Positions 3,700 to 29,711 of a stretch of 31,318 bases of DNA are shown in pieces. The translations under genes were made by a program, and so were the position numbers. The stretch lies in IMG/VR virus record IMGVR_UViG_3300032047_000075, positions 1-31,318 of that record, one strand, 5' to 3'. The notes under the pieces were generated by a model. That model did not search any database. It worked only from the letters and a program-made list of their open reading frames with translations, and had not been told where the DNA came from. The DNA is from a virus. The first letter of the stretch is position 1; every line of letters begins with the position of its first letter.

Positions 3700-6600
3700 T
3701 TACCTCTCTAATGCCCTAGTGTCGAGTTGGCTATATATAGGAGCATAATCAAGTGGTGATGCTTCTCCTGAGATTGCATCATATACTCTTTCTGCTCCGG
3801 GCCCTAATATAGGAATAAGAGGCCCTTTGCCATATTGTTTATCTTCCATAATTAAGGGTAAAGCTAAAGCTGGTGCCCCCATCATACCGCTTCTGTCCAG
3901 CACCTCAAACCAATACTTACCACCAGACATATCTTTAGAAGCTCTATAATTTACTCCAGGGTCATTAGGACTAACTCCTGGTAGTGCGTAAGATAGCCCT
4001 ATTTTAAACCTTTCCCTTATATCCCATCCTATCATTGTTAGAGGCATTAAAAGTGCTGCTCCAAAGAACAAAGGCATTAAAGCTGGAGTTATGTTGCCTG
4101 TTTCTTTATACCTAGTATTTCCTTCTCTGAATAAGCCCCCCATTATATTTTTACCATATGCGTAGTAGAAAGATTTAAGTTGCCAAACAATTGCCCAATG
4201 TGGGTCAGAAGCCCATATAGGTCTTTCTGCTGCATTTGGTCTTACAATAGACTCATCTACAAACCTACCCAAAGCTGCTGCTACTTCTGGGTGTGCTTCT
4301 ATATTACTACCACCATTTTTATATGCGTTTATCTGTTGGCCGGTTACACCCAAGTCTGCTAAATATCTTTCTGATAAAAGTACATCAGCGTCTCCTTCAT
4401 AGCCTTTGTCTACTATTTCTGCATGTTTTAACAAGAAATCTCTAGCCATACCTGCAGCAAATTTTCTAGTAAACACTGTCCATCTTTCTAGTTGTGTAAA
4501 TCTAAACCAGCTATTTGTAGCTTTTCTAGCCCACAAAGCTGAACCATCCAGTTCACCTGCATATAAAATTGTATGTGCCATAGCTTCTCTACCATTAGAA
4601 CCTATGTCTCTAGCAAGTTTTTCTCCCTCACCTTTGCCCATAGCAGCAGTTATATTATTAACAATTGATTTTAAATCTAAAGCCCTGCTTCTTAAGATGG
4701 GTCCTGCTGAATCTGGTACAGAAGCAAACACTGCCATACCCAAAAGAGTAATTACGTTTAAAGTAAGCATGCCATCATTAATATGCCTCCAAGCAGTATG
4801 TCGTATAGGATCTATCCTACCAAGCATTGCATTTACTGCATCTCTAGCATGTCCTTGCTCTTCTTCTGGCAGCATGTCTATTAGTTGTTTAATTCTTCTA
4901 CTACCTCCTCTTTTCTGTAGTTCTACTTGTCTTGTTATATCTCTTAAATATTCTATTATTGCAACTTCGCCCGGAGCGGCTAGTCCTTCTTTAACTAACG
5001 TAGGTGTATCTAGTCCTTCCCACAATATGGCTCTTTCTTCCGGCATACCTAGTCCATACCCAGAGTCTTTATCTAAGTTGCTAGCAGTGTCTACATTTTT
5101 TTCATTGTTTGTAATAATTGCTTCTACAGCTTTTGCAACATCTGCGGGTTTACTAGTTGGGTTTGCTTCTAGAAGAAGTTCTATAAGTTTTGCTTTTAAC
5201 TTAGGGTTAGCGGCAATATCTGCTACTAAAATAATACGAGGAAAATAATTTGCTCTTCTTTTAATGTCACTTTTATAGAACTGTCCAGTTTTTGGATCAC
5301 GTTTAAATATTTCATATTGTTCTAATTCTAAAATATCGTACACATCAAATAAGAACTTACGTACAACTTGTGCTTTTGGCGATAGAGCCTCTGTTACTAT
5401 TTTTTCGTCCTGCGCTTCTCTAAATGCATCTATTTCTTCTTGGGTAAAGGCGTTGTCATTTATCCCAGTAACAGCTTGTTTGATTGCATCAAAACCCTCT
5501 ACATCTTTACCGTCCATGTCTAATCGGTTTACAAGATCGTTAACTAGCTGGTTTAATTTTCTGTTTGATTCATTTATAAGCCCAGGTGTTCCTTTTTCTC
5601 CGCTAACTTTGTGAAACATTTGACCTAGTTCTTTACCTGTTTCTTGGTCTTTGCCCAAAGTATCTAAGAAACCACGAGCAGTAAAGAAAAACTTAGTAAG
5701 CCACATAGGTACTTTGCCAGTTTTTATCATTCTATCTGCGTCTTTATTTATCCTACGTAAAAACTTAGTGCTCATTTTACTGCCGAAGAGGTCATCTATA
5801 AGTTGCTCAGCGTGAGCCCTATCTTGGAAATTTAAGTCTGTTCTTTCTTCAATGATTCCTGCTATACCTTTCATAAAGTCGCCGACAGTTTCATCGTATG
5901 TGAACCTTCCTTGCATGTAAGGCGCTACCATGTTTTTCCCGGGTATAATTTTGCTTTGTGTATCAGCTTTAGCAATATAAAAAGCAAGTAAACTGTCAAC
6001 CATTGTATTAATATAGTTATCAGTTAAGTTTTTAGAATTAGGAATAGTTCCTTTTTCCAGATCAAATAAACCAGCTGAAACTTTATCAACAAACCATTCT
6101 TCAAAACCATTTTCTTCAAAGTATTGGCCGCCTGCAAAACCTTCTTTAATTTGTTGTTCTTTAGCTTTTTCAAACTCTTTCATAAACATATTTCGTATCA
6201 CGGGATTTTTTAGGATTTTAACCATTTGTTCCTTAAAAAAGCTATGTCCTAATTCATGCCCCAGGACAAGGTGTAATAATCCAAAATCAAAATCACTCAT
6301 ATCAGTTGGTGTTTTTAACACGATAATATCAAACTGTTTTCCTATTCCCTGCATATACCCAGCAATACCACTAATATCATCCATTGCTTCAGTTTTTACA
6401 TTATTTAACGTGTTGTCTATATCTTTTAATCCTGCTTCAAAATTACCGTCGCCGTGGTCTGTGATTATTTTTTTAATACGAGGTAATACCTTTGCAGCTC
6501 CTCTTACCGTAAGCTTTTCCTGTGATGTATATAACAAAATAGGTCTTTTAAGGTTTAAATGTTTTTTAGCCAGCTTTGCTATATCTCTCATATAGGATTT

Positions 6601-9600
6601 AACATCAAGGTCTGTAGACTTCTCCAGCTCCTCACTTAGTATGATAGCCTCTGTTTCTTTAGGCATCTTAGGTTCTTCTTCTGGTTTTGTTTCTTTTTTA
6701 GAATTTATCTTACTTCTAGTAAAACCTTGTTTTTGATAATGCTCAAATTGCTCGTCCCAATATTCGTTTGTAGAATCTTGATTCTGAAAATCTCCTCCAT
6801 CATCTACAGTAATATCTTCTATATCAGCTCTTGGGTCTAAACTAGTGCTACCACCTGCTGTTTCTGCTTCCCTTAAGCTTTGTTCTAAATCATTACGTTG
6901 GATGTATAAATTAGCAGCAGTATTTCTTTTTTCTCCTTTTTTAGGACCATATAAAGATTCAACTAACTCCATAAAAGCGTTGTACTGTTCATTATTAAAT
7001 TTACCTTGTTGATCTCTTATAGTTTGCATTTCTTTTATCTGTTCTTCTAAAGAGTCTATTTGGGTACTAATATCTTTAATTTTCTTTTCTATGTTTAGGA
7101 CAGTGTTTGGAGCTTGTTGGTCACTTATTCCTAAAGATTCTTCAGCACCCCTAGCTACTAAATCAGCAAAAGAAAATTCACGTTTTCCTTTATCCTCGGT
7201 GTAAACTACAAAATCGGGATCATTAAAACTTTGATCTGTTATAGGTTCACCCTTAAATGTTAGTTGGTAATCTGGATCATCTACTAAACTGCCGTATACA
7301 CTAGTAAAGGTATCTGCTAGGCTTTGATAATATTGCTCATTAGGTAATGCAGCCATCCTACCTAATATTTTTCTATAACCATTAACTAAGGTAGGCATGT
7401 CTATTGTTTGTGGTAGTGTAAAGTTACCATCAGGATCCCTACTAGTAAGCTCAAAAGGACTATTCATAAATACTTCTTTTTCACTGCCGTCGCTAAATAC
7501 TTTGTTTCTTTTTTTCCTACCCTTACTCTTAGCCTCTACGATGATACGGTCAAACTCAGGTTTTGCTTGTTCGTACGATTGTAATTTTTCTAAGGGTTTG
7601 TCATATTTATTAATAACAAAACCGTCTGCTTGTTCATCTATTTTATAAACCAGTTCTGTGTTGTTATCTGTGTCTACTGCTCCGAATTTGTTTACCTGCT
7701 CTATAAACTTTTTCAAAAGCAACCTAGAGTACTTATTTTCTTTTATAGCGTTATCAAATTCTTGACGAAATTTAGGGTGGGTAAGAAGCCTGGCATTCTT
7801 AACTTGTTCATCGTTTGGCACTTGGTCATCTCTGAATTGCAAATTAGGCGCTCTCCAGGGGTTTCCATTTCTATCTACAATAGGTTTACTACCTTCTTGT
7901 AGAGTAGGTGTAACATCTACTCCATCTTCTGCCACATCTGCAACTTGTGCATATTTACCAGTCTCATCCCTAAGACCTGTCATACCTTCAGGGTCTGCAG
8001 TACTTGTTCTTCCCATAATTTCATCAGCCTGTTCTTGAGTAAGAATGCTTATGTTTTTTGCTGTAATGTTATCTAAATCAACACCAGGGGTTTCTACAAG
8101 TGATGCTCTTTCATCTAAATGAGTTTCAGCGTCTACTATTTCGTAGCTATATTTGTCAGAGTTTGGGAACATTTTTTTAACAGCCTCAAAGTGTACGCCG
8201 CCGTCTTCTTTTGGGTCTCCTGTTTGATGGTAATGAACTAATGCACCCGTGTCTTTGTCTCTAACTTGAGCTACCCATGCATCTGAATTTTGTCTAGTTC
8301 TTGGGTATTTTAAAATTCTAGCTAACTCGTTATCTAATAGATTAGTGCTAGGCATGTTATTTTCCATGACCTGTTTAAAACCTTCTATGATTTGTGAGTC
8401 CGTAGAAAACAAAATACCACCTAGCTGCGTTTTGGTGTCTGACATATCATAACTAAACATTGAATTTGCAACGCCCGGGTATTCTTTTTTATACTTTTCA
8501 AGCTCCTCTAAGCTATTTACATCTACCCAGACAGCATCTTTATCTGCTTCTGGATCAAACATGGCATTAAACTGGCCCCTAATCCATTCTTTAGGTTCTA
8601 TCTGTACTCCTTGTCCACCTGGTCCATACTTCTTCTGTATCATGCCGGCCATTGCATCTCGCTGTTGGTAATCCCTCAGTAAATTTTGAGCGCCTGTTAC
8701 AGCTCCAGTAGAAATACCACCACCTAAACCAAAAGTTAAACCAGCAAGGGCCCCAGATGCTGCAGCTAATTGAGCGTCAAGCCTTGCTTGTTGCGCAGTA
8801 TATTTTTCGTTTAGTTGACCTTCTATACGCGGGTCAAGCATTCCAAACTGTTGTAAAGAGTCTACTCCTTGTTGCAATGCTTCTGTGCCAGCCTCAGCCA
8901 CGGTGCTGATTCCTATTGTTTTAGATATATCTCCATAAGGTATAGATCCTGGCTTATTAGGGTTATCTAGCCTACCTGGACGGGTTATACCCGATTTAAA
9001 ACCAGTAGCTTTTGTAAAAGCGCCAAATAACTTATTAAAAACGAGTGCTTCAGTAAAACCTCCGATTGCAGCAGTAGCAGTACCTTGCCCAAAAGATAAA
9101 GCTGCAGAAATAGGATCGTACATACCTTGATCTGCATAATTACTAAAAGCTTGTCCTGTTTGTCGTGGGAATTCAGACGCTGTTACCCCTGCCCCACTTC
9201 CTATAAATCTTCGTTTAGCTAAAACTTTTTTTTGATATTGCCCGTAAACAGCCCTCATTACATCTTTTTGTTCGTTAGTAAGAGTCTTTTTTAAAGCTGC
9301 TCTTTGGACAGCATCAGAGATAATATCTTTTGTAAAATGTGTAAAAGCGAGTTTTTCAGTAATGTCTTTTAGTTTCTTTTTACCGGCTGCTCCAGCCAAA
9401 ACTGCAGCAGTACCTGTAGGAACTGATACAGGTGCTGACAGTCCAGCTAATCCTACTCCAAGAAGCGCACCTGTAATAGAAGTAAGAGCAGAAAGACCTG
9501 TCTCTCCGACAACAGCTGGGGCCCATTGCATAAAACCTTCAAAATCTGGTTCGTCTAAAAACTCTTCCCAAGCTTCCGCTGAATCTATAGCTCCAACTTG

Positions 9601-9936
9601 TTTAGACGCTTCATCTGCTTCTTTTACCCCTGCCATAACAGCGTTGTAAGCACCTTCTTCATTTCCAAATAAAGCTAAAGTAGCGCCTTTCATATATTCC
9701 ATGTCAGCAGCAAAAGTTTTTAAGCTTTTTCTGTAACTCTGACGTATAGAATCAGCAGCATTAGCTGGTCTTATATTCTCAAATTCGTTTGCAAATTCAG
9801 GGCCACCAGGCATGGTGTCTGCGCCAGAAACCTTATCTAGCATATCTCTATAACCTATGATGGGGTCGTACGGCTCTTTTTGTCGCTCTCTTTCTTCGTT
9901 CTTAGATTTTATAAAGTCAAGGACTGGGTCTGACAT
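3700..9936 (-). CDS. Giant virion/ejection protein with zincin-like metallopeptidase motif and polyvalent-type C-terminus
   Basis: This 2078-aa protein is the largest gene in the window. A classical zinc-peptidase helix GHELGHSF (HExxH at residues 1227-1231) is followed downstream by an acidic segment (EENGFEEWFVDKVSAG) that could supply the third ligand. Hydrophobic Gly/Ala-rich stretches occur near residues 146-182, 388-420 and 1715-1735, with a probable membrane segment near 1945-1970. Residues around 1885-1930 (FVDESIVRPNAAERP...WQLKSFYYAYGKNIM) resemble the C-terminal LPD38-type domain of phage polyvalent proteins. A long coiled-coil region lies near 960-1010 (KIKDISTQIDSLEEQIKEM). Position after the head-tail genes suggests an internal protein ejected into the host to span the envelope. 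No T7-like or N4-like RNA polymerase motif could be found. Confidence 0.75.
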   Translation of the reverse strand: MSDPVLDFIKSKNEERERQKEPYDPIIGYRDMLDKVSGADTMPGGPEFANEFENIRPANAADSIRQSYRKSLKTFAADMEYMKGATLALFGNEEGAYNAVMAGVKEADEASKQVGAIDSAEAWEEFLDEPDFEGFMQWAPAVVGETGLSALTSITGALLGVGLAGLSAPVSVPTGTAAVLAGAAGKKKLKDITEKLAFTHFTKDIISDAVQRAALKKTLTNEQKDVMRAVYGQYQKKVLAKRRFIGSGAGVTASEFPRQTGQAFSNYADQGMYDPISAALSFGQGTATAAIGGFTEALVFNKLFGAFTKATGFKSGITRPGRLDNPNKPGSIPYGDISKTIGISTVAEAGTEALQQGVDSLQQFGMLDPRIEGQLNEKYTAQQARLDAQLAAASGALAGLTFGLGGGISTGAVTGAQNLLRDYQQRDAMAGMIQKKYGPGGQGVQIEPKEWIRGQFNAMFDPEADKDAVWVDVNSLEELEKYKKEYPGVANSMFSYDMSDTKTQLGGILFSTDSQIIEGFKQVMENNMPSTNLLDNELARILKYPRTRQNSDAWVAQVRDKDTGALVHYHQTGDPKEDGGVHFEAVKKMFPNSDKYSYEIVDAETHLDERASLVETPGVDLDNITAKNISILTQEQADEIMGRTSTADPEGMTGLRDETGKYAQVADVAEDGVDVTPTLQEGSKPIVDRNGNPWRAPNLQFRDDQVPNDEQVKNARLLTHPKFRQEFDNAIKENKYSRLLLKKFIEQVNKFGAVDTDNNTELVYKIDEQADGFVINKYDKPLEKLQSYEQAKPEFDRIIVEAKSKGRKKRNKVFSDGSEKEVFMNSPFELTSRDPDGNFTLPQTIDMPTLVNGYRKILGRMAALPNEQYYQSLADTFTSVYGSLVDDPDYQLTFKGEPITDQSFNDPDFVVYTEDKGKREFSFADLVARGAEESLGISDQQAPNTVLNIEKKIKDISTQIDSLEEQIKEMQTIRDQQGKFNNEQYNAFMELVESLYGPKKGEKRNTAANLYIQRNDLEQSLREAETAGGSTSLDPRADIEDITVDDGGDFQNQDSTNEYWDEQFEHYQKQGFTRSKINSKKETKPEEEPKMPKETEAIILSEELEKSTDLDVKSYMRDIAKLAKKHLNLKRPILLYTSQEKLTVRGAAKVLPRIKKIITDHGDGNFEAGLKDIDNTLNNVKTEAMDDISGIAGYMQGIGKQFDIIVLKTPTDMSDFDFGLLHLVLGHELGHSFFKEQMVKILKNPVIRNMFMKEFEKAKEQQIKEGFAGGQYFEENGFEEWFVDKVSAGLFDLEKGTIPNSKNLTDNYINTMVDSLLAFYIAKADTQSKIIPGKNMVAPYMQGRFTYDETVGDFMKGIAGIIEERTDLNFQDRAHAEQLIDDLFGSKMSTKFLRRINKDADRMIKTGKVPMWLTKFFFTARGFLDTLGKDQETGKELGQMFHKVSGEKGTPGLINESNRKLNQLVNDLVNRLDMDGKDVEGFDAIKQAVTGINDNAFTQEEIDAFREAQDEKIVTEALSPKAQVVRKFLFDVYDILELEQYEIFKRDPKTGQFYKSDIKRRANYFPRIILVADIAANPKLKAKLIELLLEANPTSKPADVAKAVEAIITNNEKNVDTASNLDKDSGYGLGMPEERAILWEGLDTPTLVKEGLAAPGEVAIIEYLRDITRQVELQKRGGSRRIKQLIDMLPEEEQGHARDAVNAMLGRIDPIRHTAWRHINDGMLTLNVITLLGMAVFASVPDSAGPILRSRALDLKSIVNNITAAMGKGEGEKLARDIGSNGREAMAHTILYAGELDGSALWARKATNSWFRFTQLERWTVFTRKFAAGMARDFLLKHAEIVDKGYEGDADVLLSERYLADLGVTGQQINAYKNGGSNIEAHPEVAAALGRFVDESIVRPNAAERPIWASDPHWAIVWQLKSFYYAYGKNIMGGLFREGNTRYKETGNITPALMPLFFGAALLMPLTMIGWDIRERFKIGLSYALPGVSPNDPGVNYRASKDMSGGKYWFEVLDRSGMMGAPALALPLIMEDKQYGKGPLIPILGPGAERVYDAISGEASPLDYAPIYSQLDTRALER

Positions 9937-9939
9937 AAA

Positions 9940-12363
9940 CTACACACCTGATCCCGCCGGTAAATTACTTAAGTTAGGAACTATTGGAAATGTTGATGAT
10001 AGTGGTTCTTTACTTTTTGAGTCTTTCTTTGTGTCTGGCTCTTCTTTTTTGTCTTTTTTAGGTTTGCCCTCTGTATCACCAATTGCTGTTAAGTTCTCTA
10101 GCATCCAATTATACTCAAGACCGCTTATTGCTTGTCCACGCACTAGTTCTGTTAGTGGGAGAGAGTCTTCTAGTTCTGCTCCGTCAGGGCCTATAGCAAC
10201 AATCTTTACTGGATTTCCGCCTTCATAAACTAGAGCTAAAGTATCTTTTATACCATTAAGTAAACCAGCACCTTGCAGATCATTTCTACCAATATCTGCT
10301 ATGTATTCGCCAGGAGCTTGTCCACTAATAAGCTTTCCAGTCCAACCAGTTAGAGTAGTCCACATTGACTCAGGGTTTTGTAAAGACATCATTATTTTCT
10401 GGCCAATAGCTTCTTCTTGCATAAACTTATGTTCTGTAAACCCACCTGCTTGTGCAAAGTTGTACACATAAATATTATGCCCATCTTGGTCCCACATTTT
10501 TTGTAAGCTTTCTCTCAACTCTTCGTTATCCCCAGCAGCAGCCATGTGTGCTTCATACGCTGCGTTTACATGTTGGCTACCTACCTTGCCTTTTCGATCG
10601 TTATTAAAATAGTCTTTAGTAATTGACTCTAATTTATTCTGGAATATACGTACTTTTTCAGTCTGTTCTAAGTCATCAGCCATACTAGAACTAGTTCGGA
10701 AAAGTCCTAATGGGAAACCAGGGTTAGAAACATCCCCTTTAGTTGCGTACTCTCTTAGAATTTTTGTAATTTCTGGGAAACTTTCTGCCAATTCTTGGGT
10801 AGCAGTTTTAAACTCAAGGTCGTTAGCTATTTTAACATCTTGGTCGGCTTTAGCTGCTTTTGCAATTGTTTCTGAGCGATATTTGCTTTCTTCAAATATT
10901 TGTTTTCTCCAAGCTAATAAGTCTGCGTTTTGGTTTTTTAACCTTTCTGTCATTGCAGTATAGTATGTTCGTTTTTCTGTTAGCGCCGCAGTATCTGCTG
11001 TTTGGTCAGCTCTGATACTTGTTCTTCTAGCGTTTTGAGCAGTTGCTAGGTCATTAAGTGTTGCCCCTGGTGCGCCTGTGTAAAACTCATTAAACATAGA
11101 ATCGGCAGCTTCTTTTGGTGTTCTGCCATCTGGTAAAACCAACTTACCATCTGCATCTGTCCTAGCAGCTACAGTATTTAGCAATAATATTTCTTTATAT
11201 TGCTCTTGCGCACTAACTTTTTGTTCTTTACGTTTTGCCATTAAATCAGGAATTGAGCCAATACCTTGTTCTTCTAAATCTGTAAATATTTGTTCTTTTT
11301 GTTGGTCACCGAAGTTATCTAACTCTCCTGAGTCTTTTAGGTTTTGTAGTTCGGTAGCTAAACGTTCTCCATCTAAGCCTTGTAAACTTGGATAAGCCTG
11401 TTCAAATGTTTTAGCTACACCTTGGGTGTTAACCATTACATCTTCTTTACTATCTACTTCAATACTAGGGTCTGTTTGAGAGGCTGGTTGGGATGCAACT
11501 GTATATTTAGGATTAGCAGCATACAGTGATTGTAAGTTTTTAAGGAAAGCATTTGTAGAACCTCTTCCAACATTTTCATCAAATACGCCATTAACAAGCT
11601 CAATCATGCTTTGATCAGAACCGCCGCCTATATTAGATAGCTCTATGGCGCTTTGGCTTTCTGCAAGATTTATAGCCCGGTCTCTCTTTGGCATCAATGC
11701 GCGCGCATCTGCATTAAGTTTATCTGCTCTAGCTTGTAGACCTGTTAGTATTTCTTCTCTCGTAGCAACCTGTGGTTGGTCATCTGCTTTGTCTGAACCA
11801 AATACATTTAGTAAAGAAAGTAAACCTTCTTGGTTTAGAGCAGGGGTAACGTAACCACGTAGGGTACCGTTTTCATATTGTTTTTTTAGTGCAATAGAAT
11901 CAACATTACCTGCAGCTGCTGCTTGTTCAACTGAATAAGGAACTACTCCTTCTTTTGCTAGAATAGGAGCAAAAACTTGTTGATTTCTTTTCTTCTCAAG
12001 TTGCCCGTCTGGGGTTTCAGCATGGTATGTTCCCATCATATCATTCATCAATAACGCATTAGAATATTGTTCTCGATTTCCATCGCTAAGCGCTTCTAGT
12101 TTTTTCATTGCATCTGGAGCTAAAACAATAGTCCCATCAGATTCTTGAACAAACATTCCTCCTGTTACCTCTTTGCCCTCTTCATTTGTATGGGTTATAT
12201 CCCCTAACAAAACTTGTAAATTTGAATCGTAGGTGCTTTTAGCGGCGTTACTCTGCAAGGTTTCTCTTGCCGCTTTATTTGCTGCGCTCTTGGTAAGATT
12301 CGCTTGGATAGTTGATGGTGCAGATAGACCTCTAGCAAATGCGTTTGCATATTCATTACTCAT
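9940..12363 (-). CDS. Large internal virion protein, unknown family
   Basis: This 807-aa protein is soluble in appearance, Gln/Asn/Ala/Lys-rich and mostly helical, with no signal peptide or clear membrane segment. The N-terminus (residues 1-50) is an Ala/Ser/Asn-rich amphipathic stretch. A helical region with coiled-coil character covers about residues 395-540. The C-terminus ends in a charged linker (KPKKDKKEEPDTKKDSKSKE). It lies 1 nt after the 185-aa gene and 3 nt before the giant 2078-aa gene, in the place where podoviruses encode ejected core proteins (compare T7 gp15). The role as internal core/ejection protein is inferred from order, size and composition. No catalytic motif was seen. 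Confidence 0.6.
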   Translation of the reverse strand: MSNEYANAFARGLSAPSTIQANLTKSAANKAARETLQSNAAKSTYDSNLQVLLGDITHTNEEGKEVTGGMFVQESDGTIVLAPDAMKKLEALSDGNREQYSNALLMNDMMGTYHAETPDGQLEKKRNQQVFAPILAKEGVVPYSVEQAAAAGNVDSIALKKQYENGTLRGYVTPALNQEGLLSLLNVFGSDKADDQPQVATREEILTGLQARADKLNADARALMPKRDRAINLAESQSAIELSNIGGGSDQSMIELVNGVFDENVGRGSTNAFLKNLQSLYAANPKYTVASQPASQTDPSIEVDSKEDVMVNTQGVAKTFEQAYPSLQGLDGERLATELQNLKDSGELDNFGDQQKEQIFTDLEEQGIGSIPDLMAKRKEQKVSAQEQYKEILLLNTVAARTDADGKLVLPDGRTPKEAADSMFNEFYTGAPGATLNDLATAQNARRTSIRADQTADTAALTEKRTYYTAMTERLKNQNADLLAWRKQIFEESKYRSETIAKAAKADQDVKIANDLEFKTATQELAESFPEITKILREYATKGDVSNPGFPLGLFRTSSSMADDLEQTEKVRIFQNKLESITKDYFNNDRKGKVGSQHVNAAYEAHMAAAGDNEELRESLQKMWDQDGHNIYVYNFAQAGGFTEHKFMQEEAIGQKIMMSLQNPESMWTTLTGWTGKLISGQAPGEYIADIGRNDLQGAGLLNGIKDTLALVYEGGNPVKIVAIGPDGAELEDSLPLTELVRGQAISGLEYNWMLENLTAIGDTEGKPKKDKKEEPDTKKDSKSKEPLSSTFPIVPNLSNLPAGSGV

Positions 12364-12364
12364 A

Positions 12365-12922
12365 TTAAATCAAGAATGCTGCAAGTAATGCAGATCCCAC
12401 TTGGCCTCCCATACCTATCATATTAGCACTATGTTGTGCTTTTGCATTTTTATATGCATTATATCTTTGACTTTGCATTTGAGCTGCTTCGTTCATTTGC
12501 CCTAATGCGTTTCTATTTACACCTTGTCCTATATTTATAAGATCAGAAAGCGTAGCTTGGTTAATTTCCCTTTGCGCAAGCCTTGCGTTGTTTATACTAC
12601 CGGCACTTGCTAAAGCGCTTGATCTTTGTACGGTTCTTTCTTGTTGTTGTCTTTGTGCATTAGACATGCCCGCACCGCCGTAACGTTCTCTGTTTCGTGC
12701 GGCTATTTCTCTATTTAGTTTTGTATTGGTTTCTGAGTCTTTTCTGGCTCTATCAATCAAAGATGTGTCATTACGAGCTTTTAAAAGTTGTTCTTCAAAC
12801 CCTCTAAAATCAGCAATATAGTTATCGTAGTCATCTCTAGCCATTTGAGCATAAATGCTTTGTGGATCACTCACGTCCCCTAAAGTATCTATCATCCCGC
12901 TCATTAATCTTGAAACTGCCAT
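12365..12922 (-). CDS. Small internal virion protein (gp14-like by composition)
   Basis: This 185-aa protein is rich in Asn, Gln, Ala and Arg. The centre (about residues 75-165: NARLAQREINQATL, QMNEAAQMQSQRYNAYKNAK) is a long amphipathic helical region. It ends with a short hydrophobic tail (GMGGQVGSALLAAFLI) that could insert into a membrane. This resembles small ejection proteins such as T7 gp14, an outer-membrane pore component. It forms a block with the 199-aa, 807-aa and 2078-aa genes, which suggests one ejected core complex. Similarity is compositional; homology is not demonstrated. Confidence 0.55.
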   Translation of the reverse strand: MAVSRLMSGMIDTLGDVSDPQSIYAQMARDDYDNYIADFRGFEEQLLKARNDTSLIDRARKDSETNTKLNREIAARNRERYGGAGMSNAQRQQQERTVQRSSALASAGSINNARLAQREINQATLSDLINIGQGVNRNALGQMNEAAQMQSQRYNAYKNAKAQHSANMIGMGGQVGSALLAAFLI

Positions 12923-12927
12923 AATTT

Positions 12928-13527
12928 TTAACCGTAGCTCCCTAATGATAAACCTTCAACAAAACGCATACCGGCTCCTTCTGTTCTAGACTTACCGGGA
13001 TCAAAGAACCCGTCGCCGGTAGACGCGTTTTCAATACCTTGGGCCAACATAGTTCCACCCATTTGGAATCCTGCTTTTAAATTTGCAGTTCTTACTGTTT
13101 GTTTTCTTTGGGCAGACTGTAAACTATCAGAAGCAGCTATACGTGCAGCCCCTGCTAACCCAGTAGTAGCATCTGCTTGTTGTCCTCTTGCAGTTGCTAA
13201 AACACCAATTTGCCTTTGTCTTTTACCAGCTAGTCCTGACGACTGTGCTTTACCTTGCATTTCTATAGACGCAGATAACCTATCAGCAGAAGAATCAACT
13301 GACTTAGTAGCCATAAGAGAAGGCTTATCTAAAGTTTGAGCTACGTCTGCGCCTGCTCTACCCGCAACATAATCGCCGTAGTTTTCTTTTAAAGCTAGAT
13401 CGCGTTGTTCTCTTAATAAAGGGCTATACGCTTGGTTAAAATAATCTTTTTCAGCTTTTGCTACTTTAGCTTGTACTTTTTCAGCTTCTGTTGCTTGATA
13501 TTCTGATTTTTTAGGTCCTTTACTCAT
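12928..13527 (-). CDS. Internal virion protein candidate, Ala/Gln/Lys-rich
   Basis: This 199-aa protein begins with a strongly charged helical segment (residues 1-45, EAEKVQAKVAKAEKDYFNQ). A low-complexity Ala/Gln/Ser/Arg region (about 85-150) follows, then a Gly-rich end (MGGTMLAQGIENASTGDGFF). Its start overlaps the stop of the GNAT-like gene by 4 nt (ATGA type), indicating coupled translation. There is no membrane segment or enzyme motif. Position between the GNAT-like gene and the 185-aa protein fits a head-core or ejection-complex protein. That role is inferred from context. Confidence 0.5.
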   Translation of the reverse strand: MSKGPKKSEYQATEAEKVQAKVAKAEKDYFNQAYSPLLREQRDLALKENYGDYVAGRAGADVAQTLDKPSLMATKSVDSSADRLSASIEMQGKAQSSGLAGKRQRQIGVLATARGQQADATTGLAGAARIAASDSLQSAQRKQTVRTANLKAGFQMGGTMLAQGIENASTGDGFFDPGKSRTEGAGMRFVEGLSLGSYG

Positions 13528-15680: not shown

Positions 15681-15697
15681 AATTTTACTCCTTAAAT

Positions 15698-15723
15698 ATG
15701 GGTGACTTTAGTAAGCCACCCAT
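15698..15723 (-). terminator. Strong hairpin directly downstream of the major capsid gene
   Basis: Arms 15698-15708 and 15713-15723 pair over 11 bp (one G-U pair) around a 4-nt loop, in the short gap between the capsid stop (15738) and the ribosome-binding site of the next gene. There is no U-run on the minus-strand transcript side, so it is better read as a 3'-end stabiliser or a weak/partial terminator than as a full intrinsic terminator. Confidence 0.55.
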
Positions 15724-24360: not shown

Positions 24361-24542
24361 AAATATATCGCTGAGACATCTTCTCCTACTATCACCACAG
24401 ACCCCACTCCGACCCGATCCCATTCTACTATCACCTTTCTCCGTTTCAACTTTTGGAACCTTGTTTTGGTTTTTACCCGCCGACCTCGTACCTCGGCCCA
24501 CGCTTCTCTGTCTCTTGTTATTAACTTTATATGGAGCATACT

Positions 24543-24731: not shown

Positions 24732-24788
24732 CTACTATCATCAAGCTAGGGAGCAAGTGCAATCATCTTGTTCCCTCACGCTTGAGAA

Positions 24789-24884
24789 TGTTCCGTTGGT
24801 TCCACGGCTCTAACCCAATGTGGAACCATGTCGTGGAACCACGACTATCGTGCATGCCTACTGGATTTGCATACCAACGGAACA
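24789..24884. repeat. 12-bp inverted repeat with short palindrome downstream
   Basis: Arms TGTTCCGTTGGT (24789-24800) and ACCAACGGAACA (24873-24884) are exact inverted copies around a 72-bp spacer that carries two of the TGGAACCA boxes. A second small palindrome, CAAAGC/GCTTTG with a 2-nt centre (24912-24925), follows. Together they resemble the repeat content of phage replication origins or repressor-binding clusters. Confidence 0.6.
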
Positions 24885-25073
24885 GAGTTGGTTCCGCGGT
24901 TCCGCGTGAAACAAAGCCTGCTTTGCTAACGGACAACGAACCACGGTTATTGGATATAGATTCTCTTAACCTATAACTAAGTGGAACCAGTGGAACCACA
25001 CCTATAACCACGCATCGTTACAAGGTTTATCGTGTTCCATGATATTTGGAACCAAGTGGAACCAGTGGAACCA
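24797..25073. repeat. Array of TGGAACCA/TGGTTCCA 8-mers (origin or operator candidate)
   Basis: Exact copies occur at 24797-24804 (inverted), 24821-24828, 24834-24841, 24982-24989, 24991-24998, 25047-25054, 25057-25064 and 25066-25073, with a near copy at 24888-24895 (TGGTTCCG). The last groups have 9-10 bp spacing, so the same face of the helix is offered, as in iterons or tandem operators. The palindromic core TGG-NN-CCA is dyad-like. The array fills the 411-bp gap between plus ORFs and ends 3 bp before a hairpin. No ORF of credible composition lies in this gap. Confidence 0.75.
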
Positions 25074-25076
25074 CAA

Positions 25077-25102
25077 CAGTCAGCCGTGTCCCACGGTGAC
25101 TG
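25077..25102 (+). promoter_or_regulatory. TCC-triloop hairpin 1, upstream of the first plus-strand gene
   Basis: Lower stem CAGTCA (25077-25082) with TGACTG (25097-25102), single G bulge at 25083, upper stem CCGTG/CACGG, and loop TCC (25089-25091). It sits 40 bp before the ATG of the 131-aa gene and directly after the repeat array. It shares its geometry and triloop with hairpins at 25522, 26421 and 27210. The template-strand loop would read GGA. Confidence 0.7.
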
Positions 25103-25142
25103 CTATTACATTAGGTATATTAACTAGTACAAGGAGTACATT

Positions 25143-25538
25143 ATGAAATACGTAGTATCAACACAATACATAGAGAACTATGGAGCTCATTCAGAGCGTG
25201 GCACTTATGCGCACAACCAACATTGTTGGAAGTTCAAAGGTGGCACTGACTATGTTGTTACTGGTCTGGATAGAGTAGAAGACGCAGTTGCATTTGTTCA
25301 AGCATATCTTGCAGTCGGCAAGAGAGGCAACAACATCATGGTCAAAGAGTTTCCAACTGAATGGCAGTCTTATGCCGATTGGAGAGACTCTATGTATGAT
25401 CTTCAGTCTGATCATCTTAACCACGTTCTTGAGTCAACAGTTCATATTGACCCACGGGGCGAAGATGTGGCTGATCTGTTAAAGGCTCGCGGAGCTCAGA
25501 CTCAGCCTATCGGAGACGAAGCAGATACCTCATCCTGA
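25143..25538 (+). CDS. Unknown early protein, 131 aa
   Basis: ATG with AAGGAG six nt upstream. The N-terminus (MKYVVSTQYIENYGAHSERG) and following HNQHCWKFKGGTDYVVTGLDRVEDAVAFVQAYL look like a small mixed alpha/beta domain repeatedly found in phage and prophage early genes, but without known function. There is no signal peptide, membrane segment or cofactor motif. The gene is the first of the rightward run, behind a TCC-triloop hairpin, and its stop codon (TGA, 25536-25538) lies inside the next such hairpin. Host-takeover or regulatory roles are possible, but nothing in the sequence identifies one. Confidence 0.7.
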   Translation: MKYVVSTQYIENYGAHSERGTYAHNQHCWKFKGGTDYVVTGLDRVEDAVAFVQAYLAVGKRGNNIMVKEFPTEWQSYADWRDSMYDLQSDHLNHVLESTVHIDPRGEDVADLLKARGAQTQPIGDEADTSS

Positions 25539-25546
25539 GGTGTCTG
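25522..25546 (+). promoter_or_regulatory. TCC-triloop hairpin 2, overlapping a stop codon
   Basis: Arms 25522-25532 and 25536-25546 pair over 11 bp (one G-U pair) around loop TCC at 25533-25535. The stop codon of the 131-aa gene is the first three bases of the 3' arm, so the last four coding codons are fixed by the structure. The next gene starts 36 bp further right, and TTATATTAA lies between them. Confidence 0.65.
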
Positions 25547-25582
25547 TTGTTTAGTAAGTTATATTAATTAAAGGAGTATGTT

Positions 25583-25756
25583 ATGAGTATCGTAAATAGT
25601 GAATGTGAATGTTGTGGTAAGAAAGCAATATTGGAAGAGTTTAGTGAAGATTGGGAAGTTTATGGTCAAGCTTCTATTTATTCTTTTATGTTCTGTGCTG
25701 AGTGTATGGAAGATAAAGAAGATATGTTTAGGGAGTTGATGAGTGATTATGACTAA
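25583..25756 (+). CDS. 57-aa zinc-ribbon-like protein
   Basis: ATG with AAGGAG six nt upstream. Residues 8-11 are CECC and 38-41 CAEC, giving the CxxC...CxxC arrangement of a small zinc ribbon, with an acidic C-terminus (MEDKEDMFRELMSDYD). There is no other motif. Such mini zinc proteins are frequent among phage early genes and often bind host proteins or DNA. Its target is unknown. It overlaps the next gene by 14 nt (GTG start) or 8 nt (ATG start), which suggests coupled translation. Confidence 0.6.
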   Translation: MSIVNSECECCGKKAILEEFSEDWEVYGQASIYSFMFCAECMEDKEDMFRELMSDYD

Positions 25757-25958
25757 GAAGAAAGAAACTATTATGGATAAGTATGGAAGGTCTGGTCCTT
25801 CCATATCCGTAACGTGGAAAGATGACGCTCTATTAGAGAACTTAAGAAAGCTGTTAGGTCTTAAGACCAAACCAGCAGTAATACGGTTTCTTGTAGAGAG
25901 ATTTAGAAGTGATTTAAATGAAGTATCAGATTTGTTAAAAGATATATTGGAGAAATAA
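25743..25958 (+). CDS. Ribbon-helix-helix-like small protein
   Basis: The GTG start at 25743 is chosen because GGGAG lies 7 nt upstream; the ATG at 25749 would remove two residues. The pattern SISVTWKDDALLENLRKLLGLKTKPAVIRFLVERF (strand, helix, turn, helix) is what one expects from an RHH (Arc/MetJ-type) DNA-binding dimer, with a short polar strand and two helices. It might be a repressor acting on the TGGAACCA array or on promoters in this early region. Family assignment is by pattern only. Confidence 0.45.
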   Translation: MIMTKKKETIMDKYGRSGPSISVTWKDDALLENLRKLLGLKTKPAVIRFLVERFRSDLNEVSDLLKDILEK

Positions 25959-25960
25959 CT

Positions 25961-26380
25961 ATGAAAGAAGTAAATGTATGGTATGGGACTGATGAAAACG
26001 CTTGGCTAAGTAATTTAGCTGAGCGTAGGTTTACCCTGAAAGATGGAAGAGAGTATGTAAGCGTTGAACATGCTTACCAGACTTGGAAAAGCGGAGAGTT
26101 TTGTCCAATTATTTATAGAAAGCCTTGGGAGGCTGGAAAGAAATATGTGGGTAACTACCCTAAGACTGCTAATAACTGGAATATTAAGTTAATGGAAAGT
26201 CTTATTATGGATAGCTTTTCCCAGAACCCTGGGTTATGGGGTGCACTCTGTCTTATTGAAGGAGAGTTTACCCATAACCAAGACCGAGGAATCTGGAAGC
26301 ATGAGTTTCCTAGAATTCTTGATGAAGTTCGTGATATGGGGATTCATCTCCATCGTGAAAGATCAGTTGCTTGGATTTAA
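25961..26380 (+). CDS. NADAR-domain protein (ADP-ribose hydrolase-type)
   Basis: This 139-aa protein fits the NADAR (YbiA-like) fold: VWYGTDENAWLSNLAERRFTL at the start (LSNL corresponds to the FSNF core), then YVSVEHAYQTWKSGEF (SEHYFQ-type motif with its Glu-His), NNWNIKLMESLIMDSFSQNPGLWGALC and a C-terminal EGEFTHNQDRGIWKHEFPRILDEVRDMG that matches the D..W....iL.evR ending. NADAR enzymes are known to act on ADP-ribose adducts and some reverse DNA ADP-ribosylation by DarT-type toxins. In an early phage region, a counter-defence role is a reasonable inference but untested. Confidence 0.75.
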   Translation: MKEVNVWYGTDENAWLSNLAERRFTLKDGREYVSVEHAYQTWKSGEFCPIIYRKPWEAGKKYVGNYPKTANNWNIKLMESLIMDSFSQNPGLWGALCLIEGEFTHNQDRGIWKHEFPRILDEVRDMGIHLHRERSVAWI

Positions 26381-26390
26381 TGCCAAGCCA

Positions 26391-26417
26391 CTCGCTCGGG
26401 CCTTTGGCCCTCGCTCG
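26391..26417. repeat. GC-rich palindrome bounded by CTCGCTCG repeats
   Basis: The octamer CTCGCTCG is present at 26391-26398 and 26410-26417, flanking a GGGCC-TTT-GGCCC hairpin (26398-26410). It lies between the NADAR gene and TCC-triloop hairpin 3 and is much more GC-rich than its surroundings. There is no U-run, so a terminator is unlikely. Confidence 0.45.
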
Positions 26418-26420
26418 TCG

Positions 26421-26448
26421 ACAGTTGTCCACGTCCCGTGGCAACTGT
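26421..26448 (+). promoter_or_regulatory. TCC-triloop hairpin 3
   Basis: Lower stem ACAGTTG (26421-26427) with CAACTGT (26442-26448), T bulge at 26428, upper stem CCACG/CGTGG and loop TCC (26434-26436). It has the same architecture as hairpin 1 with different but still complementary arm bases. It precedes the 67-aa gene by 67 bp. Confidence 0.7.
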
Positions 26449-26515
26449 TAGTGAGTATTGTATGTTAGTTACAGGTGTAGCTAGCAAGTTAATTATATAT
26501 ACCTAGGAGGTAATT

Positions 26516-26719
26516 ATGTTGTATTCATTATACATATTAAAAGACGGCAAAGACGGCAAATCTAGATCTAGAGAAGTCGGCATAGCAACTACTAACAAAG
26601 ACGGTAGCTTAACACTACACTTTGACGTAGCTATCCCATTGACTGCTGACAATCAGCAAGCAAAGGTCTTTATGCGTGTCATTGAGATGAAAGAACAGCC
26701 AGCAACAGCAGTAGCTTAG
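26516..26719 (+). CDS. Unknown 67-aa early protein
   Basis: AGGAGG lies 5 nt upstream of the ATG. The protein is beta-strand-prone (YSLYILKDGKDGKSRSREVGIATTNKDGSLTLHFDVAIPL), like a small OB/beta-barrel-type fold. There are no cysteines and no membrane segment, and it ends in an Ala/Thr-rich tail. It stands alone between two leader hairpins. Its function is not recognisable. Confidence 0.6.
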   Translation: MLYSLYILKDGKDGKSRSREVGIATTNKDGSLTLHFDVAIPLTADNQQAKVFMRVIEMKEQPATAVA

Positions 26720-26804
26720 TTGGTTGTGTCTGTATCTGGTAGAACGTAGGTTCTTTAAATCCAAAGTGGCCAGACTAAGTAACGTAGCTTGCAAGACAAA
26801 GCAG

Positions 26805-26846
26805 ACAACGACATCCCGAGGTCGTACAAAAGCTCGGGACGGTTGT
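26805..26846 (+). promoter_or_regulatory. Larger leader hairpin before the 76-aa gene
   Basis: Stem ACAAC (26805-26809)/GTTGT (26842-26846), internal loop, then TCCCGAG (26814-26820)/CTCGGGA (26833-26839) around a 12-nt loop. A competing small hairpin ACGAC/GTCGT (26808-26825) holds ATCCCGAG in its loop. It occupies the place where other plus-strand genes have the TCC-triloop hairpin, but does not fit that consensus. The 193-bp gap around it holds no credible ORF. Confidence 0.5.
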
Positions 26847-26912
26847 TACGGAAAGCACATGCTCAGATGAGAAGCTGGGCGTTATATTAACCATTATTAC
26901 TTAGGAGGTAAT

Positions 26913-27143
26913 ATGAATATAGTAAAAACTACTGCCAGTATATTTGGCAAAGCAACGAAACTTGTTGTGTCTCTTACAGGTAACTCTTTCAATAGCATGA
27001 AAGCAGGTTTCGCTGAAGGGTACACGGGTATCAACGCCACTCCAGAAGTAGAAGCACCAGTTTCACCTGTTGCTCCTACGGTACAGAGACAACCTGTACA
27101 ACAGGAGTTTAATTTTACTCAGCCAACACCAACGGCTGAGTAA
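26913..27143 (+). CDS. Unknown 76-aa protein
   Basis: ATG after TAGGAGG (4 nt spacing). The N-terminal half is helical (MNIVKTTASIFGKATKLVVSL), possibly an amphipathic membrane-touching helix, followed by FNSMKAGFAEGYTG. The C-terminal half is a disordered Pro/Gln/Val linker ending EFNFTQPTPTAE. It is the last gene before an intrinsic terminator at 27146. Its role is not recognisable. Confidence 0.55.
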   Translation: MNIVKTTASIFGKATKLVVSLTGNSFNSMKAGFAEGYTGINATPEVEAPVSPVAPTVQRQPVQQEFNFTQPTPTAE

Positions 27144-27145
27144 GT

Positions 27146-27174
27146 AAAAAAGGGAGCTTCGGTTCCCTTTTTTT
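27146..27174 (+). terminator. Intrinsic terminator with UUCG tetraloop
   Basis: GGGAGC (27152-27157), UUCG loop (27158-27161), GUUCCC (27162-27167) and a T-run of seven (27168-27174), with an A-run of six on the 5' side. This is a classic Rho-independent terminator. It should stop transcripts leaving the 76-aa gene, so genes to the right need their own promoter. Confidence 0.9.
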
Positions 27175-27209
27175 ATACTGTAAGAATACCCGCAAGTGCT
27201 TGTATATGC

Positions 27210-27234
27210 CAACTGCCACATCCTGTGTCAGTTG
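27210..27234 (+). promoter_or_regulatory. TCC-triloop hairpin 4, downstream of the terminator
   Basis: Lower stem CAACTG (27210-27215)/CAGTTG (27229-27234), C-T mismatch, upper stem CACA/TGTG and loop TCC (27221-27223). An outer 6-bp pair CGCAAG (27191-27196)/CTTGCG (27245-27250) encloses it. It lies 36 bp beyond the intrinsic terminator and 44 bp before the next start codon, the position expected of a promoter that restarts transcription. Confidence 0.7.
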
Positions 27235-27278: not shown

Positions 27279-27437
27279 ATGGATGAAGTACATGTACCCA
27301 ACGAGGTGCTACAAAAGGCTGAAGCTAGCGAAATACAATCGCAAGCTGATTATGTAAATGCTGGTGAGTTGCTTAAGCAATTTATCAGACGTGTAGAATT
27401 GTCATCACAAGGAGGAAATTATGGCGACACATTTTGA
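27279..27437 (+). CDS. Unknown 52-aa helical protein
   Basis: The ATG at 27279 has AAGGAGG upstream (5 nt). An earlier GTG (27225) would overlap hairpin 4 and lacks a ribosome-binding site. The protein is acidic then helical (NEVLQKAEASEIQSQADYVNAGELLKQFIRRVEL), with no cysteine or membrane segment. Its stop lies inside the next gene (17-nt overlap), and the end of its reading frame supplies that gene's AAGGAGG, so the pair is translationally linked. Function unknown. Confidence 0.6.
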   Translation: MDEVHVPNEVLQKAEASEIQSQADYVNAGELLKQFIRRVELSSQGGNYGDTF

Positions 27438-28245: not shown

Positions 28246-28677
28246 ATGGGACTAGATATGTACGCAGGATGGTTACATCCTAAACCAGAGCAACCAGATA
28301 ACGTGGTTGATATAAAAGATAATATAGGCGAACGCATGGAATCTGTGTATGAATGGCGTAAACATGCCAGGCTACAACAGTTCATGATGATGTTACATGA
28401 TTCTAAGAACAACGGACCTGGACAGGGAGAACGTAATGGAATGATGGATTCGTTTAACAGTGGAGAAGTGCTCATGCTTACAAAAGATGATGTGCTTATG
28501 CTAAAAGAACGTGTAGAGAAAGAAGACTTACCTTTTTGTCCAGACGGTTTTTTCTGGGGACATCAGTTCCAAGAAGAGTCGGTCAAAGAGTACAAAGAAC
28601 AAGACCTTAAGTTTTGTGAAGATGCACTCAAGTGGCTCGATGAAGGTAAAGAAATATGGTACGAGTGTTCGTGGTAA
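28246..28677 (+). CDS. Unknown phage protein with MGLDMY start, 143 aa
   Basis: ATG behind AGGAGG. The MGLDMYAGW start and the later YEWRKHARLQQFM...FCPDGFFWGHQF...LKWLDEGKEIWYECSW recall a family of small phage proteins that begin MGLDMY and carry a WRK helix; no function is known for them. Tryptophans and cysteines are numerous. It is followed 17 nt later by the AAA+ ATPase gene and is likely on the same message. Confidence 0.65.
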   Translation: MGLDMYAGWLHPKPEQPDNVVDIKDNIGERMESVYEWRKHARLQQFMMMLHDSKNNGPGQGERNGMMDSFNSGEVLMLTKDDVLMLKERVEKEDLPFCPDGFFWGHQFQEESVKEYKEQDLKFCEDALKWLDEGKEIWYECSW

Positions 28678-28694
28678 ATTACTAGGAGGTAATA

Positions 28695-29711
28695 ATGCAT
28701 ACAATTAATCCAATCAAACTCAAAGACGAGTTAAAAGACTGTATCCATGCTGGCTATCCAGCAATGATATGGGGTGGGCCAGGCATTGGCAAATCAGATA
28801 TACCTGCACAGGTTGCACAAGAACTCAATATTAAGCTTATTGATTTTCGTGCTAACTTGTTCGACCCTGTCGATGTGCGTGGTATTCCATATATTAAACA
28901 GTTGAAAGAAACTGGCAAACGCTTCACTTCGTGGGCTATACCAGATGTGTTTCCAATTGCTGAACGTGACGGAGACCGTGGCTTGTTGTTTATCGACGAG
29001 TTACCAACTGCACCACCAGCAACGCAAAATGCTTTTCTACAACTGTTGCTCAACAGAGCCATCGGTGAATACGTATTGCCTGCTGGCTGGCAAATCATTT
29101 GTGCTGGCAACAGACTGACTGACGCAGCATCTGTTTATCAAATGCCAAGTCCAGTTCGTAACAGGCTTGCTCACTATGAGCTCGAGCCAACGTTGGACGA
29201 CTGGGTACAATGGGCCTACCAAAACAACATCGATGCAGATGTTATCTCGTTTATACAATACAGACCTAACTTGTTGTCTGCATTCAACGCAGATGAATAC
29301 GCTTTTCCAACGCCACGTGCGTGGTCGATGGTAAGCAAAAAAATGTCAAGAGCTAACACTGATCCAGAACGTTTGTTCTTCGGTGTGTCATCACTAGTCG
29401 GTGATGGTCCAGCTGGCGAGTTTGTTGCATTCAAAGAAATTGCTAACAAGCTACCTGACATTGACGTGTTGCTCAAAGATCCATCTACGTACAAGAAAGA
29501 CGACAACCCAGCGTTGTTGTACGCCTTGGCTACTGCGGTTGCTACTAGAGCACAAGACGACAGGATGGAAAATATTATGAAGCTAAACAACAAGTTACCA
29601 GTAGAGTTTCAGGTTGTATTAGTCAAAGGTTGTTTGGCCAAAGACAGACAACTCAAGTCACACAACGATGTGCGTAAGTGGATCGTTGACAATGCTAATG
29701 TTGTTTTATAG
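28695..29711 (+). CDS. MoxR-family AAA+ ATPase
   Basis: This 338-aa ATPase has Walker A GPGIGKS (residues 28-34), Walker B LLFIDE (97-102), sensor 1 in IICAGNRLTD (N139) and an RNR arginine-finger region (about 155-157). The helical lid follows (LEPTLDDWVQWAYQNN). This is the MoxR/RavA clade, chaperone-type ATPases that normally work with a VWA-domain partner. That partner, a metallopeptidase/VWA gene, is two genes downstream, as in phage N4 gene pairs and in many other phages. Likely substrate: a phage or host protein complex to be remodelled; not identified. Confidence 0.88.
   Translation: MHTINPIKLKDELKDCIHAGYPAMIWGGPGIGKSDIPAQVAQELNIKLIDFRANLFDPVDVRGIPYIKQLKETGKRFTSWAIPDVFPIAERDGDRGLLFIDELPTAPPATQNAFLQLLLNRAIGEYVLPAGWQIICAGNRLTDAASVYQMPSPVRNRLAHYELEPTLDDWVQWAYQNNIDADVISFIQYRPNLLSAFNADEYAFPTPRAWSMVSKKMSRANTDPERLFFGVSSLVGDGPAGEFVAFKEIANKLPDIDVLLKDPSTYKKDDNPALLYALATAVATRAQDDRMENIMKLNNKLPVEFQVVLVKGCLAKDRQLKSHNDVRKWIVDNANVVL

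Follow-up and report, generated by a model that had tools for sequence, protein, structure and literature searches.

Covarying hairpins before the early genes of an uncultured phage with an N4-gp56-like capsid, and their association with its ejection cassette

Hairpins at the early genes

The DNA analysed here (the window: 31,318 nucleotides (nt), IMG/VR record IMGVR_UViG_3300032047_000075) is a 31-kb fragment of an uncultured phage. Its capsid protein is N4-gp56-like, and the closest cultured relatives by capsid are the Pseudomonas phages of the KPP25 group, at 54% identity. Four hairpins stand on its plus strand before early genes, and an earlier note on the sequence had put them forward as candidate promoters of the kind known from phage N4. 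All four lie where that note placed them, each with a TCC loop: H1 (25077-25102) is 5' of gene A (25143-25538, 131 amino acids (aa)), H2 (25522-25546) of a 57-aa gene at 25583, H3 (26421-26448) of gene B (26516-26719, 67 aa) and H4 (27210-27234) of gene D (27279-27437, 52 aa), all on the plus strand, with gaps of 36-68 nt to the start codons. Between H4 and the preceding plus-strand gene C (26913-27143, 76 aa) there is an intrinsic-terminator-like hairpin with a U tract (27145-27180, plus strand), as judged from its sequence. The hairpins have an upper stem of 4-5 bp and a lower stem of 6 bp with CAG or CAA as its first bases, and between the two lies a bulge on the 5' side (G in H1, T in H3) or a C/T mismatch (H4), while H2 is fully paired over 11 bp, one of them a T.G pair. 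The fixed height of this defect and the lower-stem bases had been described in the same way; as a correction, H2 runs into the end of gene A, covering its last codons and stop codon. No T run was found 3' of H1-H4 and they are missing from the terminator listing, so they do not look like intrinsic terminators, and no relevant match to the hairpins was obtained with the Rfam covariance models (4227 families).

H2 is followed at a fixed distance by a conserved sequence, TTGTTTAGTAAGTTATATTA (25547-25566, plus strand; family pattern approximately TTNTTTAGTNAGTTRTATT), and sequence of this kind is also found 3' of H1 and H3 and, weakly, 3' of H4. Across the family, copies of this sequence line up more sharply if the end of the hairpin, and not the Shine-Dalgarno sequence, is taken as the anchor. 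Before the first plus-strand gene there is a conserved block, TTGGAACCTTGTTTTGGTTTTT, with a degenerate TAC hairpin, GCCGACCTCGTACCTCGGCC (24453-24498, plus strand).

Comparable hairpins were found ahead of early plus-strand genes in many related contigs, most of which are fragments (39 were retrieved with the AAA+ protein as query and the set was later enlarged by other queries). That pairing is kept while the arm bases differ, as the earlier note had observed for the window, is borne out by 27 distinct copies from the relatives, in which 98.3% of arm cells pair compared to a mean of 60.8% and a maximum of 66.9% in shuffles. In a gap-free set of 15 copies, pairing was 92.7% compared to 62.5% in shuffles, changes on both sides occurred in 10 of 11 pairs (53 such cells against 16 expected, a number reached in none of 500 shuffles) and a one-base shift of the arms against each other abolished pairing. 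The loop-closing pair is G-C or A-T in 25 of the 27 copies, mismatches at the fixed height are mostly pyrimidine-pyrimidine, and departures from pairing in the stems are G.T (6) and A.C (3). The invariance claimed for the TCC loop holds for the four hairpins of the window and not for the relatives, where loops of TTC, TAC, ACC and CCC and 4-nt loops of AACC, ACCC and ATCC also occur.

A covariance model was built from the 15 gap-free copies and scanned over both strands of 1.14 Mb at a cut-off of E<0.05. Matches were confined to the early plus-strand region, in a single orientation, and included bulged copies absent from the model (H1, outside the model-building set, scored 32 bits, H2 48.5, H3 32.5 and H4 28.7). 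This search of related phage genomes, which had been proposed as a check, thus retrieved conserved hairpins from the early region only, whereas the same model had no match in the structural modules, in N4 or in KPP25, and examination of KPP25 for hairpins of this kind found none. The hairpins are a genuine conserved and covarying family, restricted to the early region and to one orientation, and literature searches found no description of them.

Hairpin types and the ejection cassette

Other close relatives carry the same genes in the same places with two quite different hairpin designs, giving three types in all: type A, as in the window, type B, with a 4-bp upper stem (C...G), a loop with a terminal A and the same C/T mismatch, and type C, in which a conserved apex, GTCGCTNCGCTTKG, sits atop a covarying outer stem. 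The type patterns were set by us after viewing the sequences, and loose patterns also match elsewhere by chance, at scattered positions; a type could be assigned to 20 genomes, none of which had mixed types in its early region. The type A model had no match in type B or C genomes even at E<5, while AAA+ proteins 96-98% identical to that of the window occur with types A, B and C alike. In the relatives, the block TTGGAACCTTGTTTTGGTTTTT is followed by an intact hairpin matching that genome's own type.

Association of genes with hairpin type was assessed from similarity within and between types over 30 shared gene families, and this was repeated with unbiased clustering of called genes. Essentially perfect separators of the types were a giant ejection-type virion protein (2078 aa, 3700-9936, minus strand), which gives the best match to hairpin type, the adjacent 185-aa ejection-cassette protein (12365-12922, minus strand), whose correlation with type is perfect, and a 107-aa membrane protein, TM107; the unbiased scan of all gene families placed the same genes on top. 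A 199-aa protein of the cassette (12928-13527, minus strand, p=0.003), the scaffold and the portal (p=0.008) track type less strictly. The remaining cassette member, of 807 aa (9940-12363, minus strand), has no recognisable counterpart across types in the family comparison, its place in type B and C genomes being taken by unrelated-looking replacements. Three tail proteins (141, 124 and 360 aa) do not track type (area under the curve (AUC) 0.40-0.42).

When type was mapped onto gene trees, with permutation p values that assume exchangeable genomes, it changed only twice, which is the minimum, on those of the giant (n=11, p=0.001), the 185-aa protein (n=12, p=0.0012) and TM107 (n=15, p<0.001). 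By comparison, there were 8-9 changes on the trees of TerL, AAA+, TerS and genes B, D and E (4-6 when limited to giant-bearing genomes), as frequent as with shuffled labels (p 0.46-0.88). The ejection cassette lies 12-20 kb from the hairpins, and TerS, B and D adjoin them yet ignore type, so that physical linkage does not account for the association.

The giant has an HExGH motif (HELGH in the window) that is invariant in 13 homologues, and it matches virion PHROGs. Its fold has as nearest viral matches in BFVD proteins annotated as "large polyvalent protein associated domain", and the C-terminal region of the N4 virion RNA polymerase (vRNAP) aligns with it at HExxH, though not significantly. 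It looks like a metallopeptidase protein of the polyvalent injected kind with no detectable polymerase domain. In its size, its coding within the virion module and its HEXXH metallopeptidase it resembles the polyvalent injected phage proteins of Iyer et al. 2017 (PMC5512222), some passages of which also describe the N4 vRNAP itself as polyvalent and as carrying a fused HEXXH metallopeptidase; those passages describe no coupling of such proteins to hairpins that lie in the early region of the same phage.

TM107 (L050 8441-8764, equivalent to G009 28441-28764) has a near-invariant N-terminal membrane part and a C-terminal tail that is specific to the hairpin and ejection type. Such a pattern would suit a candidate superinfection-exclusion protein aimed at ejected proteins.

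Recognition of the hairpins

A gene for an N4-like vRNAP elsewhere in the genome, for which the earlier note had suggested a search, was not found by profile or hhalign comparison. The N4 vRNAP profile phrog_2206 had no match in 18 related records and the T7-like RNA polymerase (RNAP) profile phrog_414 none in 14, a complete relative being included in both cases and the N4 control being positive; these profiles were used because a PF00940 search for T7-like RNAP had no match with its control silent as well. No significant match was given by hhalign of the giant and the 807-aa protein against vRNAP cores, no significant relative by phmmer with N4 gp1, and nothing convincing by a search of large open reading frames for DPBB or single-subunit RNAP motifs. 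The complete relative, G004 (L045-L048, a contig of 61,031 bases), has identical ends of 99 bases and a unit of 60.9 kb, and the products of its large genes with PHROG matches include an ejection protein, an internal virion protein and proteins of replication. The compartments that remain for type A are spanned jointly by the 41-kb G009, G015 (whose giant is 100% identical to that of the window) and G017. The lack of any comparable polymerase, which had been named as telling against N4-type promoters, is largely what was observed, and the hairpins cannot, for this reason, be called demonstrated N4 vRNAP promoters.

The classical example of promoters that take the form of hairpins and are read by an ejected polymerase is N4, where transcription starts about 11 nt from the loop centre. 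The gene-strand sequences of its hairpins, as located in NC_008720, are GTTGC-TTC-GCAAC and AAGAAGC-TCC-GCTTCTT, and the non-template triloops of P1 and P2, TTC and TCC, are the same as in type A hairpins. As with the early promoters of N4 (Schitoviridae), hairpins with a 3-nt loop (4-nt in a few copies here) stand ahead of the earliest genes. Passages of PMC4496689 and PMC5512222 describe N4 stem bases as exchangeable if pairing is kept, and the reader as an ejected giant virion protein with a metallopeptidase domain; here the match of hairpin specificity to an ejected protein is seen as a correlation. The stems are longer than those of N4, as had been noted (10-12 bp with a mismatch or bulge, compared to 5-7 bp), the loop-closing pair is reversed (purine-pyrimidine, G-C or A-T, where N4 has C-G), and there are several hairpins per genome, three types among close relatives and no RNA polymerase domain found. 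Of the original N4-type proposal, the early placement, the loops and the logic of a reader tied to an ejected giant have stood, and the polymerase, stem length and closing pair have not, so that the system would be N4-like in logic while not being a shown member of that group.

We tentatively favour, with rather less than even confidence, the reading that the hairpins are early-gene control elements recognised by an ejected protein, most likely as promoter-type DNA hairpins. A protein delivered with the phage DNA, either the giant or a cassette partner, would recognise the apical part of the hairpin, and this would switch on the gene behind it as infection begins, the transcript starting a short way downstream; in each phage lineage the hairpin design would be particular to that lineage and would fit the ejection cassette found with it. 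The polymerase would be either that of the host, recruited by the ejected factor, or an unrecognised one. An ejected protein is present before phage expression, and only the first genes are marked by hairpins, the very first among them. The co-switching is most simply explained if such a protein recognises the hairpins, and we infer that recognition is direct and that the role is that of a promoter. In contig L006 there are only about 17 nt between the terminator U tract and the hairpin, a space in which an ordinary promoter would hardly fit, and this favours a start downstream of the hairpin. So does the scarcity of promoter-like sequence upstream: on the plus strand of the early region a sigma-70 pattern scan gave no site, and a 10-of-12 sigma-70 scan of whole records gave none at the hairpins of the window.

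Several points weigh against this reading. The sample holds 11 giants and three types only, and TM107, which lies outside the ejection cassette, tracks type just as closely; the correlation could therefore stem from a common factor, for instance host range. No polymerase or known DNA- or RNA-binding domain was found in the ejection cassette, where the AlphaFold models of the 807-aa protein and the N-terminal half of the giant were poor (pLDDT 56 and 60) and had no PDB match. Both G.T and A.C departures occur in the stems, and they do not favour one strand or molecule (DNA or RNA) as the one that acts.

A -10-like hexamer about 13 nt 3' of the hairpin is genuine as composition. In T4 middle promoters a MotA box replaces the -35 element and a phage factor steers the host polymerase, and the likeness here is an AT-rich hexamer at a fixed distance downstream, but the upstream element is a covarying hairpin and not a fixed sequence. 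A -10 role for the hexamer was rejected because the start would land in the Shine-Dalgarno sequence in many copies.

Among the rivals, the hairpins could instead act in mRNA leaders, bound by a phage protein (ejected or early, such as that of gene C) or a host protein that controls stability, translation or antitermination. The order of hairpin, fixed downstream sequence and Shine-Dalgarno sequence is leader-like, some stems including H2 have G.T pairs, a further hairpin, with pairs of the G.U type, is present in the leader of gene B, and gene C tracks type (AUC 0.90). MS2/Qbeta coat operators and lambda N-boxB are phage RNA hairpins paired with proteins, with a short stem, a small loop, a bulge at a fixed height and lineage-specific loops, and the present hairpins are alike in stem, loop, bulge height and lineage-specific loops; they differ in occurring as several copies per genome before many genes at variable Shine-Dalgarno distance, and no candidate binding protein from those families was identified here. 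That distance runs from 22 to 86 nt, which excludes simple occlusion, G.T is not clearly preferred over A.C, the sigma-70 scan offers no plus-strand site upstream, and the first gene in line has a hairpin too, for which a reader made only once early genes are expressed would come too late; we consider leader control unlikely, though a serious rival. The host as common cause is less probable again: types A, B and C would infect different hosts in which a differing host factor reads the hairpin, and ejection proteins are often host-specific, while TM107 (p<0.001) and the portal (p=0.008) also track type. Against this, the three types occur among genomes with AAA+ proteins 96-98% identical, three different hairpins would hardly be required by factors that are orthologous between related hosts, and the tested tail proteins (141, 124 and 360 aa) are independent of type.

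That the hairpins are promoters for a genuine vRNAP of the N4 type is very improbable, even given their early location, the TTC and TCC triloops shared with P1 and P2 and an ejected giant with a metallopeptidase as N4 has (in passages of PMC5512222), because the vRNAP and T7-like RNAP profiles are negative, including in the complete G004, as is hhalign, the stems are 10-12 bp and types B and C have no GNA-type template loop. We give as little credence to the idea that the hairpins are terminators, palindromic operators for a protein, or sites processed by RNase III or otherwise, for which the intergenic positions and palindromic arms could speak: terminators would have a U tract, which is missing, the arm sequence is not conserved as it is in operators, the loop and downstream sequence are conserved, unlike those of RNase III sites, and the first gene has a hairpin without any gene upstream.

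Recognition of the hairpins by an ejected protein could be extended to an account that we regard as possible but doubtful, a novel class of switch for the onset of infection in which a polymerase-free ejected polyvalent protein reads lineage-specific hairpins in the early region of its own phage, the phage activates only DNA bearing its own code, and cassette, hairpin and the exclusion-like membrane-protein tail are swapped jointly between close relatives. If true, this would be a second and apparently polymerase-free system with interchangeable hairpin codes, so that ejected proteins may more widely be early-gene specificity factors, and it would be a clue to the role of the very large ejected proteins in many podophages. 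Reporters in which hairpins and proteins are exchanged would allow the code to be tested, and the way in which the membrane protein switches together with the hairpins and the ejection proteins would point to phage-phage self/non-self recognition.

Further features of the window

Gene A was found only in type A genomes, whereas gene B is present in all three types; the trees of genes B and D are independent of hairpin type. Gene C is the first early gene in several relatives, and proteins of its family (63-87 aa) frequently end in Q-x-E-F-D-F or Q-x-E-[ML]-[DK]-I, which by eye resembles a sliding-clamp-binding motif. The second conserved hairpin of the gene B leader (26463-26512) is TGTTAGTTACAGGTGTAGCTAGCA, or AGTTTGATACGGGTGTATCGAGCC in relatives, and the gene B Shine-Dalgarno sequence sits within the self-complementary TACCTAGGAGGTA.

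The noncoding stretch between genes B and C (26808-26880) contains a conserved covarying pseudoknot, CGAC[TCCCGAG]GTCG ... CTCGGGA, which in relatives has CCCCGAG/CTCGGGG or CCATGTG/CACATGG and different stems (19 distinct versions), and a second hairpin, GCTCAG-ATGAGAAG-CTGGGC. An Rfam search of this stretch gave no relevant match, and it is possibly a new structured RNA.

Ahead of H1, at 24770-25075, GTGGAACCA and GGTTCC repeats are clustered, and in several type A and B relatives a tandem GTGGAACCAGTGGAACCA adjoins the first hairpin of the equivalent region. Within gene D, just 5' of gene E, a stretch at 27358-27392 can form a hairpin (TCTGGTGAG...TTCATCAGA in relatives) and is present in most relatives, a conservation that could reflect coding constraint as well as structure. 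On the minus strand, a 12-bp hairpin, TATGGGTGGCTTACTAAAGTCACCCATA (15692-15719), stands between the gene for the major capsid protein and the one that follows it, and a similar hairpin is found in G009.

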